Origin: an uncultured Clostridia bacterium | Lineage (GTDB): Bacteria; Bacillota; Clostridia; Oscillospirales; Acutalibacteraceae | Assembly (NCBI GenBank): GCA_946626015.1 | Contig: CAMOTT010000002.1 | Coordinates: 1 to 33,543, forward strand | Length of the DNA: 33,543 bases | Reading direction: 5' to 3' | Shown here: positions 20,955 through 30,015 of the stretch, in pieces | Position numbering within the stretch: position 1 is the first letter of the stretch | Layout of the letters: every line of letters starts with the position of its first letter | Translations under genes and position numbers: made by a program | The notes under the pieces: model-generated | Told to the model about the DNA's origin: nothing | What the model saw: only the letters and a program-made list of their open reading frames with translations | Database searches by the model: none

Positions 20955-21593
20955 TTACTGATATTTTTTGATTACCTTGTGCAGTACGGAAATGAGGATT
21001 ACGCCCACCACCGCGGTTGCAATGATCTCGGGAATCATATAGCTGGCGTTATATATGGCTGAATATATCATTGAAAGCTTAAGGCCGGAATAATCGGCAA
21101 GGATCCTGCCCCCGAATTTCGGGAAGCCTTCCTGAGTAAAGTACCATTCGGCGTACTGACCAAAGAGGATAAAGCCGGAGACAAAATGCGCCGCAAACCT
21201 CGCAAGTCCCGCAACTATTATGCCAAGCAAAAATGAGGTTTGGGGATTTTTGATCTTCTTTGAGAACGCTCCGCCAAGACCGAGGACGGAAAAAGCGACA
21301 ATGTAGTCAAAGAACAGTATCAGCAGAACACCCCACCATTTTTGCCCCGCAAATGCGGAGGTCGCCGTGCCTAATATTGCCTGAATTACGCCGTCCACAA
21401 CTCCGCACAGCATACCGAAACGCACGCCGTACATATAGCCCACAAGCATTATTGGCAGCATACTGCAAAGGGTTATTGAACCGCCGTAGGGCAGCTCGAA
21501 CACCTTTATAAACGATAAGAGCGCCGCCGCCGCTACCATAATGCCGCCCATTGCAAGCTTGAGATTTTTTGGTTTTGCGTATGTCTTTTCCAT
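20955..21593 (-). CDS. thiT: ThiT-family thiamine transporter S component (ECF transporter)
   Basis: MLPIMLVGYMYGVRFGMLCGVVDGVIQAILG...; downstream of TPP riboswitch; start MEKTYAKPKN behind AAAGGAAG (track start 21659 falls in the leader). Confidence 0.88.
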   Translation of the reverse strand: MEKTYAKPKNLKLAMGGIMVAAAALLSFIKVFELPYGGSITLCSMLPIMLVGYMYGVRFGMLCGVVDGVIQAILGTATSAFAGQKWWGVLLILFFDYIVAFSVLGLGGAFSKKIKNPQTSFLLGIIVAGLARFAAHFVSGFILFGQYAEWYFTQEGFPKFGGRILADYSGLKLSMIYSAIYNASYMIPEIIATAVVGVILISVLHKVIKKYQ

Positions 21594-21608
21594 ATCTGTC
21601 TTCCTTTC

Positions 21609-21650
21609 AAAATAAAAATCCGGTGCAGCCCTCATCGGACGCACCGGACG
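21609..21650 (-). terminator. Intrinsic terminator of the TPP riboswitch expression platform
   Basis: Minus strand CCGGTGC...GCACCGG followed by ATTTTTATTTT, between aptamer and thiT start. Confidence 0.8.
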
Positions 21651-21682
21651 AAAATACAAAAACGGAACACAAAATTCCTGTT

Positions 21683-21766
21683 ATGTCAACTTCCTACGTC
21701 GGCATTATCCGAATCAGGTATAAAGGGTATGATCTCAGCCGACCGCAGTCAGCACCCCTGTTGTTC
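21683..21766 (-). ncRNA. TPP riboswitch (THI element)
   Basis: Minus strand CAACAGGGGTGCTGACTGCGGTCGGCTGAGATCATACCC...ACCTGATTCGGATAATGCCGACGTAGGAAGTTG; CUGAGA and ACCUGA..GGAUAAUGCC hallmarks. Confidence 0.95.
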
Positions 21767-21807
21767 TTTTTTAATATACTAACACTATTATGTGAATATG
21801 TCAAGCT

Positions 21808-27277: not shown

Positions 27278-27309
27278 GAAAACACCTCCCGAAGTTGGTT
27301 ACTGTTTAC

Positions 27310-27338
27310 AGCATACGCCTTTTTTCCCCGGTTTTCAA
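27310..27338 (-). promoter_or_regulatory. Promoter of the GH95-like gene
   Basis: Minus strand TTGAAA - 17 bp - TATGCT. Confidence 0.5.
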
Positions 27339-27386
27339 TAATCTGAGCAGAGAATTTTCGGCTATTTACGGAATTTGCAGATTAAA

Positions 27387-27441
27387 AAACTCCCTCCATG
27401 AGGGGCTGAATGCCCGCATGGCAGACTGAGGGAGTAAAAAA
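27387..27441. terminator. Nested hairpin, probable bidirectional terminator
   Basis: ACTCCCTC-CATGaGGGGC...GCCCgCATG-...GAGGGAGT flanked by A and T runs on both sides. Confidence 0.6.
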
Positions 27442-27474
27442 ATAAAAGTTGCCCGGCAAAGTTTTAATTGTATA

Positions 27475-27510
27475 CAAAAAGAATAAAATCGGCGGGGAAA
27501 AATCCCCGCC
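27475..27510 (-). terminator. Intrinsic terminator for minus-strand transcription through the islet left end
   Basis: Minus strand GGCGGGGA-TTTT-TCCCCGCC then GATTTTATTCTTTTT. Confidence 0.7.
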
Positions 27511-27544
27511 AAATATTTAATATTTTAAAATGTACACTTTAAGA

Positions 27545-27573
27545 TTGATTTTCGCATCTATATATGATATACT
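27545..27573 (+). promoter_or_regulatory. Sigma-A promoter of the candidate ncRNA
   Basis: TTGATT - 17 bp - TATACT with extended TGn. Confidence 0.7.
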
Positions 27574-27579
27574 ACAGCC

Positions 27580-27729
27580 AAGGAGTAAATGGTCAGTTTG
27601 CTTCTCTGGGTTGTAGCAATACGACCCTTTGGTTGCACGTATCGCGTTTTTCTTACTTTCTATTTTTCGCGATATGTCTCCATTTTTCTTACCTGACACC
27701 CCTTCTTAACGGGAGGGGTGTTTCTTTTT
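27580..27729 (+). ncRNA. Candidate structured small RNA, ~150 nt, family not recognised
   Basis: Promoter 27545-27573; hairpin GGGTTGTA-GCAA-TACGACCC (27608-27627); 10-bp hairpin ACGTATCGCG/CGCGATATGT (27637-27677) with 21-nt pyrimidine loop; terminator ACACCCCT...AGGGGTGT-TTCTTTTT (27696-27729). Confidence 0.6.
27696..27729 (+). terminator. Intrinsic terminator of candidate ncRNA
   Basis: ACACCCCT-tcttaacggg-AGGGGTGT then TTCTTTTT. Confidence 0.75.
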
Positions 27730-27745
27730 AGTATTTTGTATTACC

Positions 27746-27774
27746 ACTATAGCACAAATGTTCGGTTGCGTCAA
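27746..27774 (-). promoter_or_regulatory. Minus-strand sigma-A promoter opposing the candidate ncRNA
   Basis: Minus strand TTGACG - 17 bp - TATAGT; partial LexA-like CGAACATTTGTGCT in the spacer. Confidence 0.6.
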
Positions 27775-27802
27775 CAAAGGTTTAAAATAATATCTAACTC
27801 TT

Positions 27803-28432
27803 TTATGTTTCTAAAATATCCTTAGATATCCGAGTAAACGGTATCTCAATTGTATTGTATATTCTTTTTGTGGAGCCAACCGTAGTTCCATCTATAAATA
27901 TATGACCATAAACATATCTCCCATCTACATAACTCCCCAAACCAGAGATTGCTGCTCCGAATAAAACTGGACAATTATTATTTTTCAAATTGCTTTCTAC
28001 ACACTGCATTACTCTGAGGGATATGTCATATGAAAGCAGATTGTTTCCAACTTTGTTCAATATTCCAAAATTTGAAAGCCCGTAGGTTGTACTCCATGAA
28101 AGTTTACCAAACTTTGACATAACAAGATCCACTTTTTGTTGTTCTATTAAATGATTAAGAATTGGTATACTGTCGTCTCCGTTTGTTATATATTTCAGGT
28201 CATCTGCTAAGATTTGTTCAATTTTACTTTTGTTCTTTGATAAATTAACAAACCTTCTTACTAAAATTTCTAAATCTTTGTCACATAGAATAGTTTTATA
28301 ATAATCTTGGTTCTTTCGCGCTTCTTCTGCTCTTATTTTAAAATCTTTATCCGCCGCTGATTGCTTAAAAAAAACCGATCCAAGATATATGACTCCGAAA
28401 ATCAATCCAAAAGTCATGCCGAGTATTTCCAT
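27803..28432 (-). CDS. Uncharacterized membrane-anchored protein (islet operon gene 4)
   Basis: 209 aa, N-terminal TM (MEILGMTFGLIFGVIYLGSVFF) and soluble C-terminal domain; 6 nt after previous ORF. Confidence 0.75.
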   Translation of the reverse strand: MEILGMTFGLIFGVIYLGSVFFKQSAADKDFKIRAEEARKNQDYYKTILCDKDLEILVRRFVNLSKNKSKIEQILADDLKYITNGDDSIPILNHLIEQQKVDLVMSKFGKLSWSTTYGLSNFGILNKVGNNLLSYDISLRVMQCVESNLKNNNCPVLFGAAISGLGSYVDGRYVYGHIFIDGTTVGSTKRIYNTIEIPFTRISKDILET

Positions 28433-28438
28433 GTTAAT

Positions 28439-28669
28439 CTACTCCCTTGCTGAATTTATACTATCTGTAGCCGCATCAATAGATTCTATCGCCTCTTCAA
28501 GACTTTATACCGCGCTCTCTGCTTTTGAGTATCTGTCGCTATCCTGAAGGTTTTCAGGTATGTTATCAAAAGAGTCTTGCTCTTCATCTAATACTTGCGA
28601 TACTATGTTAGACGCTTCCTCAAGAAGTTTTAGCGCATCATTCAATGTAGACCTTCTTTTATTGTTCAC
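28439..28669 (-). pseudogene. Small coiled-coil-like protein gene interrupted by an in-frame TAA (islet operon gene 3)
   Basis: GTG 28669 overlaps upstream stop and follows GGGAGG; reads VNNKRRSTLNDALKLLEEASNIVSQVLDEEQDSFDNIPENLQDSDRYSKAESAV*SLEEAIESIDAATDSINSARE*; TAA at 28505-28507. Confidence 0.7.
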
Positions 28670-29022
28670 AAATTTTCCTCCCATATTCCGGGGAATGTAA
28701 TCTCAAGCATCATCAGATCATCGTTGATCCGACTAAAGCTAAATGACGTTGAGTTATTAAGTATATCATAAAGCGTATGTTTGTTAGAGTATATAGTTAT
28801 ATCGGGGCATTTAATCTTAATACCGATGCTTTTGCTGTTTTCGTCAATTTCAGCCTCTAATCCTTCGCCTTCAAATTCCTCTATGATAGAATCAATACAA
28901 TCACAAATATTGGATAATTGTTCCTGCTTCTCTCCATTGATTCTCCACATTGGATATACTTCTTTGGTATATTCATCGACCACCAAAGATACTGCATCAA
29001 AGCAATTTATAAAACTACTCAT
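28666..29022 (-). CDS. Uncharacterized protein (islet operon gene 2)
   Basis: 118 aa ORF, 4-nt stop/start overlap with gene 3, 13 nt from gene 1. Confidence 0.75.
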   Translation of the reverse strand: MSSFINCFDAVSLVVDEYTKEVYPMWRINGEKQEQLSNICDCIDSIIEEFEGEGLEAEIDENSKSIGIKIKCPDITIYSNKHTLYDILNNSTSFSFSRINDDLMMLEITFPGIWEENL

Positions 29023-29035
29023 GTTACACCTCTAT

Positions 29036-29443
29036 TTATTCCAAAGTCTCTGTCAGTCCCCCAAAACCAAAATCGATCTGAATCTTTCCATCCGTTCTCG
29101 GATATATATCACAATTACTCGCAATCTCAGCAGCTTTTAAAAACCACTTAGGGCTATTCAAATCAATTTTTTTGCCTATAACAGTTACGCTACCGAAGTC
29201 TTTGTAGGGCTCATGAAGATCGTAATCTACTTTTACATCTTTACCAGCAAATAAGTTCTTCATAATTTCATATGTATATTTAACATCTCTTACTCTTGTT
29301 GGAATTATCATCGAGGTTTTCTTATCTTGTTCCTCAAATTCCTTTGCAATCATAAGCAAAATGTCCTCGGGGTCTTCTATCCTATCCTCAGCTTCATCCT
29401 CAATGAACAAATCATTTTCTAACTCATAGTTGTTATCTTCCAT
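29036..29443 (-). CDS. Uncharacterized acidic protein (islet operon gene 1)
   Basis: 135 aa ORF behind GGAGGAAC; divergent from XRE regulator. Confidence 0.75.
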   Translation of the reverse strand: MEDNNYELENDLFIEDEAEDRIEDPEDILLMIAKEFEEQDKKTSMIIPTRVRDVKYTYEIMKNLFAGKDVKVDYDLHEPYKDFGSVTVIGKKIDLNSPKWFLKAAEIASNCDIYPRTDGKIQIDFGFGGLTETLE

Positions 29444-29515
29444 TAAAGTTCCTCCTCCCTTACATTCTTAACATCGTTAAAGCATCTTATTGATTTCTAA
29501 GAACCACATATTACA

Positions 29516-29544
29516 ATAGTAACATAAACATATAACCGTTTCAA
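29516..29544 (-). promoter_or_regulatory. Promoter of the islet operon
   Basis: Minus strand TTGAAA - 17 bp - TACTAT; -35 overlaps an operator half-site. Confidence 0.6.
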
Positions 29545-29605
29545 CACTTTAAGCAAAAATAATCAACACCTATTGTGTAGAAAATAAAAATACAATAAGT
29601 GTTGA
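29541..29605. promoter_or_regulatory. Operator-like inverted repeat and extra half-site in the divergent intergenic region
   Basis: TCAACACTT (29541), TCAACACCTATTGTGTA (29563-29579) and its inverted partner TACAATAAGTGTTGA (29591-29605). Confidence 0.6.
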
Positions 29606-29616
29606 GGTGAAACACA

Positions 29617-29919
29617 ATGATTAAAGATTTGCCGGTTAAACTTAAGGCGCTCCGGATAAAGTACGGTTATTCTCAAAAACAAGTTGCGGATAAATTGCAA
29701 ATTTCACTGTCCATTGTTTCGTGGTACGAAACAGGGGAAAGAACACCCAGCACCGATGTACTGCTGTCGCTTTCATATCTCTTTAATTGCAGTACGGATT
29801 ATTTATTAGGTAAACAGTCATCCGCTCCGCAGTTTGTAATTGATACAAGCGGGCTTACAGATAATCAGATAGTGGCGATAATAAATCTCATAGAAGCCAT
29901 AAAGGAAAACCAAAAATGA
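29617..29919 (+). CDS. XRE/Cro-type helix-turn-helix regulator
   Basis: LKALRIKYGYSQKQVADKLQISLSIVSWYETGERTPSTDVLLSLSYLFNCSTDYLLG. Confidence 0.93.
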   Translation: MIKDLPVKLKALRIKYGYSQKQVADKLQISLSIVSWYETGERTPSTDVLLSLSYLFNCSTDYLLGKQSSAPQFVIDTSGLTDNQIVAIINLIEAIKENQK

Positions 29920-29928
29920 TATTTTAAG

Positions 29929-29953
29929 AGGACGGGTTGACCGTCCTTTTTTC
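29929..29953 (+). terminator. Terminator after XRE gene
   Basis: AGGACGG-gttga-CCGTCCTTTTTT. Confidence 0.9.
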
Positions 29954-29990
29954 TGCACATTTTTATCTTTTGTGCAGAATTTGTGCAGAA
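29951..29990. repeat. TTCTGCACA / TGTGCAGAA inverted and tandem repeat
   Basis: TTCTGCACA 29951-29959; TGTGCAGAA 29971-29979 and again 29982-29990. Confidence 0.75.
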
Positions 29991-30015
29991 ATATAAAATT
30001 TGCCTGTGATCTACA

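Follow-up and report, generated by a model that had tools for sequence, protein, structure and literature searches.

A region of about 150 nucleotides (27580 to 27729, forward strand) in DNA from an uncultured member of the Acutalibacteraceae very probably carries a genuine gene for a structured RNA. The DNA is contig CAMOTT010000002.1 (positions 1 to 33,543; assembly GCA_946626015.1, a 1.9-Mb draft genome about 90% complete), which was analyzed over its full 33,543 nucleotides. We call this stretch the window, and coordinates are window positions unless another locus is named. Sequence comparisons support well the view that this is a small structured RNA, apparently belonging to a family not described before, with four hairpins, its own promoter and terminator, and two known members. 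The RNA is carried by a mobile accessory module comprising the genes ORF3, ORF2 and ORF4, a CI-like helix-turn-helix (HTH) regulator and an ORF1-type protein. As for function, we tentatively favor, at a little below an even chance, a role as a cis-antisense regulator of an opposing transcript on this module.

The anatomy of the RNA gene is compact (Table 1). An earlier note, made from the sequence alone, had described a promoter with an extended -10 element (TTGATT-17-TATACT), an 8-bp hairpin with a GCAA loop, a 10-bp hairpin with a 21-nucleotide pyrimidine loop and an intrinsic terminator. All of these are present, and every hairpin as well as the terminator appears in both the minimum free energy (MFE) and the centroid structures. 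However, the list of hairpins was incomplete, as it lacked a 10-bp hairpin at the 5′ end (27581-27605); also missed were a promoter facing the RNA from the opposite strand (27774-27746) and a 35-codon reading frame with an AAGGAG sequence. Only 0.05 extended -10 sites of a quality equal to that of the RNA promoter are expected per strand in the 561 nucleotides of the region. The loop of hairpin 3 (27647-27667) consists almost entirely of pyrimidines.

Folding calculations indicate an unusually stable structure, with an MFE of -55.3 for positions 27580-27729 (z-score -6.8) that none of 200 shuffled sequences attains. The z-score is -5.4 without the terminator and -6.0 for hairpins 2 and 3 together. 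Eight of the 44 base pairs are G-U pairs, which turn into A-C mismatches on the opposite strand, and that strand folds far less well (-36.0 versus -55.3). Therefore, the folded molecule is expected to be the plus-strand RNA.

No described family was found to match this RNA. The earlier note had not recognized a family either, and in a search with Rfam 15 no family reaches its gathering score on the RNA; only a thiamin pyrophosphate (TPP) riboswitch elsewhere in the window does. The best Rfam score on the RNA, 24.3 of 55 bits for rnk_pseudo, derives mostly from the terminator. Searches with blastn revealed no homolog in 60 relatives, 396 genomes of the order, three genomes of the genus, plasmids or phages, and a covariance model derived solely from the window RNA gave nothing convincing in 150 genomes of the family, 292 of the class and 300 of the phylum. 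Weak matches to the model (L008-L012, L168 and L169) proved on inspection to be terminators or coding DNA. The RNA is present as a single copy in the host genome assembly.

A homolog was reached by way of the neighboring genes. Loci carrying relatives of ORF3 were fetched (72 kb) and scanned with the window-RNA model, yielding one strong match (L178:3031-3167, 28.2 bits). Across ~740 genomes the same model produced three matches of this strength, all spurious, which corresponds to an expectation of ~1e-4 per 72 kb. A second model, R2, built from the window and L178 RNAs and run with filters off on seven other ORF3-bearing stretches and ten whole genomes, led us to accept only L178. A 27.1-bit match of this model (L190) was rejected, as it has neither the hairpin 2 sequence nor the module.

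L178 comes from a different family of the same order as the host. Folded alone, its RNA forms the same four hairpins in its own MFE structure (z-score -6.2), and its plus strand again folds better than its minus strand (-53.4 versus -26.0). In the joint alignment of the two RNAs, 79 of 80 pair cells (98.8%) are paired, compared with 39-60% when the partners are slid. The earlier note had proposed compensatory changes as a check on the structure, and ten pairs are indeed altered on both sides: five of the ten in hairpin 1, two in hairpin 3 and three in the terminator. The corresponding covariation score is 0.64, versus 0.09-0.25 in slid controls. The promoter is also preserved, as evident by identical -35 and -10 hexamers and 17-bp spacer in L178 (2996-3034). 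The start region ACAGnnAAGG is kept, and TATACTACAGnnAAGG is common to both loci at the start of the RNA.

Hairpin 2 is the only part of the RNA in which stem and loop are both fixed. Over positions 27603-27625, 20 of 23 nucleotides match, and the loop is GCAA in the window and GAAA in L178, both of the GNRA type. A match of this quality was obtained in none of 5000 shuffles and at no site in a host DNA sample of ~0.79 million positions. In L178, hairpins 1, 3 and 4 have not kept their sequence, and neither the pyrimidine loop nor the linker nor the UUUUUCUUAC motif is preserved; hairpin 3 itself is retained there, and its loop is not.

Two module genes are likewise shared: relatives of ORF3 (36% identity, 3e-27) and ORF2 (27% identity, 1e-22) lie near the RNA in L178. 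The surrounding stretch, L178:1114-5708, resembles a mobile element, with an integrase (phrog_5830), a MazF-like protein (phrog_1936), a 119-amino-acid protein, the RNA, an HTH-S24 repressor and counterparts of ORF4, ORF2 and ORF3. The repressor is longer than the HTH regulator of the window, and the 119-amino-acid protein has no match in phages or plasmids.

A strong promoter that faces the RNA is predicted at both loci. Its L178 counterpart lies at 3270-3242 (11/12, extended -10), and promoters of at least 10/12 arise in only 35 of 10000 shuffles for the window (0.35%) and 16 of 10000 for L178 (0.16%). In the window, the predicted opposing transcript of ~250 nucleotides, expected to begin at about 27739 and to end at the terminator at 27512-27489, would be the complement of the whole RNA; its L178 equivalent would form the leader for the gene of the 119-amino-acid protein and then the MazF-like gene. 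The hairpins are kept while the sequences of hairpins 1, 3 and 4 drift, which fits a target on the opposite strand because such a target changes with the RNA. These two observations, facing promoters at both loci and a retained hairpin structure with free sequence, are why we favor a cis-antisense regulator.

From these features we infer how the RNA might be transcribed, pair in cells and affect expression. Transcription of the RNA would begin at its own extended -10 promoter and stop at its intrinsic terminator, and the minus-strand promoter just past its 3′ end would yield a transcript containing its full complement. The two RNAs would make contact through hairpin loops, and the resulting duplex could reduce or stop the opposing transcript's expression and thereby keep the genes of the element quiet. 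Hairpin 2 would be recognized by a partner that does not co-vary with it, perhaps a protein or an RNA receptor.

Several observations weigh against this proposal. The opposing transcript of the window carries no convincing gene, as its 60-amino-acid frame with a GTG start lacks a coding signal. Its L178 counterpart may start from a promoter that does no more than drive the divergent operon of the 119-amino-acid and MazF-like proteins, with the overlap being incidental. A fixed GNRA hairpin is unnecessary for plain antisense pairing. Furthermore, the covariation comes from one comparison between two members, in an alignment fitted to the structure of the window RNA. Finally, the module does not always include the RNA, given that seven other ORF3-bearing stretches lack it.

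Plasmid counter-transcripts are cis-encoded antisense RNAs of mobile elements. The window RNA resembles RNAs of this kind in having stable hairpins on one strand, an opposing promoter that would generate a complementary transcript, and a location in mobile DNA. Type I antitoxins such as SR4 offer a further comparison (PMC8309996). Unlike such RNAs, the window RNA faces neither a replication gene nor a convincing toxin peptide on the other strand and has a fixed GNRA hairpin, and its opposing transcript is a predicted one.

The main competing explanation is that hairpin 2 (UUGGGUUGUAGNAAUACRAC, with its GNRA loop) is a protein recognition site and that the other hairpins are structural, such that the RNA serves as a titrator or as part of a ribonucleoprotein. 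We consider this possible and distinctly less probable than a cis-antisense role. The fixation of hairpin 2 alone, in both stem and loop, speaks for a protein partner, as does the co-occurrence of the RNA with ORF3 and ORF2 in two families; ORF2, ORF3, ORF4 or ORF1 might each be the protein in question, although we regard this too as doubtful. However, searches of the module proteins turned up no RNA-binding domain, and seven other stretches carry ORF3 but not the RNA. A more specific version, which we consider speculative and rather unlikely, is that the RNA represents a new mobile-element family whose fixed GNRA hairpin is read by one of the ORF3-ORF2-ORF4 module proteins, forming an RNA-protein system, perhaps for element control or defense, in Clostridia-like gut bacteria.

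The earlier note had instead proposed that repeated C/U-rich motifs direct the RNA to Shine-Dalgarno (SD) regions. Under this explanation, a trans-acting small RNA would use the UUUUUCUUAC copies in the loop, linker and terminator loop to block SD sites. The repeat it reported is exact, with TTTTTCTTAC at 27647-27656 and 27683-27692 and at no further site in the window, and a related UUCUUAAC lies in the terminator loop region; all three are unpaired or nearly so. This layout is like that of LhrC, whose loop, linker and terminator loop bear redundant motifs (PMC4132741). However, an exact 10-mer repeat occurs in 200 of 5000 dinucleotide shuffles (4%) of this T-rich RNA, and the repeat by itself is therefore weak evidence. 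Targets were examined in a host-genome sample of ~0.4 Mb. The ribosome binding site (RBS) of ORF3 is able to pair with all ten nucleotides of the motif, as are six of 336 RBSs in all, but it ranks only 20th of 405 by energy. Moreover, 60 of 60 shuffled versions of the loop and 44 of 60 of the linker bind 150 sampled host RBSs at least as well as the natural sequences, so the pairing does not exceed what base composition would give. The idea loses its main support because the motif, loop and linker are not conserved in L178, albeit this is a single homolog, and we consider a trans-acting role of this kind unlikely. What stands of the earlier interpretation is the compact structured RNA, as evident by the L178 promoter, four hairpins and ten compensatory pairs; what does not is the anti-SD role modeled on LhrC and the csRNAs.

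By the features tested, the window RNA is not a member of either group, nor is it a type I toxin mRNA. The likeness to LhrC is one of layout, seen in the window copy alone; the window motif is U-rich, no UCCC or CUCCC occurs in the RNA, the motif is not conserved in the homolog, Rfam gives no match, and there is one copy rather than the several near-identical copies per genome of LhrC. Streptococcal csRNAs of the CiaR regulon are likewise short intergenic RNAs with stem-loops and a terminator; the window RNA differs in being single copy and having two more hairpins. A direct half-repeat, TTTAAG-N5-TTTTCG (27538-27554), lies immediately upstream of the RNA promoter. CiaR repeats are defined as NTTAAG-N5-TTTAAG with at most one mismatch per half, located 10 nucleotides before the -10 element (PMC3091779). 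The window sequence has two mismatches in its second half and a distance of 13 nucleotides, and thus falls outside this definition.

It is improbable that the RNA acts in cis as a leader or attenuator for a plus-strand gene further downstream, such as that for the HTH regulator: an HTH gene does follow the RNA on the same strand in L178, but a terminator with a U-tract closes the RNA at both loci, the L178 gene has its own TTGACA-17-TACTAT promoter past the RNA, and in the window four minus-strand genes (ORF1, ORF4, ORF2 and ORF3) separate the RNA from the HTH gene.

Least probable of all is a small mRNA, for example of a type I toxin-antitoxin system in which the RNA encodes a hydrophobic 35-amino-acid peptide and the opposing transcript is an RNA antitoxin. 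The frame begins at an ATG (27589) behind AAGGAG and ends just ahead of the terminator; an SD with a start and at least 30 codons occurs in only 48 of 5000 shuffles, the SD sits in a hairpin, an opposing promoter is present, and type I toxins are usually hydrophobic and shorter than 60 amino acids (PMC8309996). However, the frame has no coding signal (p 0.16-0.17, when 93% of real-gene windows of the same size give p<0.05), its hydropathy peak of 1.49 is marginal, and the peptide has no family match. The earlier note had held that homologs conserving a peptide rather than the stems would speak against a structured RNA; L178 keeps the stems, carries AAGGCA in place of the SD and has lost the ATG, and its corresponding frame stops before hairpin 2 without an SD-led start. 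A type I toxin mRNA is unlikely because codon signal is lacking and neither the SD nor the ATG survives in L178, which already appears to bring this explanation close to refutation.

The RNA locus lies near the left end of an AT-rich islet (27294-30015, ~2.7 kb; GC content 34% overall and about 32-37% along its length, versus 53-58% in surrounding DNA) and is convergent with the minus-strand ORF3/ORF2/ORF4/ORF1 operon. A congener, G002 (L145), has ~42 bases in place of the islet, with a left flank collinear for ~16.5 kb and a right flank collinear to the contig end. No integrase was found within the islet.

Table 1. Predicted features of the RNA locus and its islet (window coordinates).
Feature	Position	Strand	Remarks
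Intrinsic terminator	27489..27512	-	would end antisense transcript of ~250 nucleotides
RNA promoter	27545..27573	+	TTGATT-17-TATACT, extended -10 (TGA TATACT)
Structured small RNA	27580..27729	+	~150 nucleotides, predicted start to U-tract
Hairpin 1	27581..27605	+	10 bp (27581-27590 with 27596-27605), 5-nucleotide loop
Hairpin 2	27608..27627	+	8 bp, GGGUUGUA-GCAA-UACGACCC, GNRA loop
Hairpin 3	27637..27677	+	10 bp (27637-27646 with 27668-27677)
UUUUUCUUAC copy 1	27647..27656	+	apical loop of hairpin 3
UUUUUCUUAC copy 2	27683..27692	+	linker
Intrinsic terminator of RNA	27695..27729	+	12-bp stem (27695-27722) and U-tract
Opposing promoter	27746..27774	-	TTGACG-17-TATAGT, extended -10, facing RNA; 10/12
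ORF1	27803..28432	-	209 amino acids, hydrophobic N-terminus
ORF4	28439..28669	-	small protein, related to 77-amino-acid L178 protein (phrog_4068)
ORF2	28666..29022	-	118 amino acids; 27% identity to L178 4949-5302
ORF3	29036..29443	-	135 amino acids, first gene of operon
HTH regulator	29617..29919	+	Cro/CI-type

ORF3 represents a family of small proteins without an earlier description, whose members are dispersed across the order (L138, L139, L174 and L178-L182). Its relatives, at 27-36% identity, occur at nine other loci of the order, and it has no Pfam match above threshold and no match in phages or plasmids. Distant relatives of ORF1 come after ORF3 at L138 and L139, and no ORF1 homologs were found in GTDB. 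The ORF4 frame is interrupted by an in-frame TAA (28505-28507). Relatives of ORF4 in phrog_4068 are found in many phages and plasmids, including Microbacterium, Rhodobacter and Faecalibacterium phages and Enterococcus and Listeria plasmids, and the RNA is not present in the phage and plasmid contexts located through ORF4. A GTDB scan for two TTTTTCTTAC copies spaced 16-46 nucleotides apart returned 80 loci, all coding sequences or repeats and none fitting the model.

Two further elements were observed in the window. A second terminator-like element lies upstream of a GH95 gene (27392-27437, minus strand); it consists of a long, imperfect palindromic sequence, CTCCCTCAGTC...GGAGGGAG, and a T-run after it. 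The TPP riboswitch (21674-21769, minus strand, 72.3 bits) is located upstream of a membrane protein gene (20955-21659), whose product looks like a thiamine transporter.

The small RNAs of little-studied bacteria such as this host, and of their mobile elements, have hardly been charted. The two RNAs described here provide a candidate family with a search signature, consisting of TATACTACAG followed by UUGGGUUGUAGNAAUACRAC in a GNRA hairpin, which can be written as the pattern TATACTACAG N30-60 GGGTTGTAGNAATACRAC. They also illustrate that conservation within an RNA can be lowest exactly where a repeated loop motif looks most striking, and thus that the search for a homolog should come before any inference of function from such a motif. 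Because the RNA is linked to a module of uncharacterized genes, it offers a direct way into their function.
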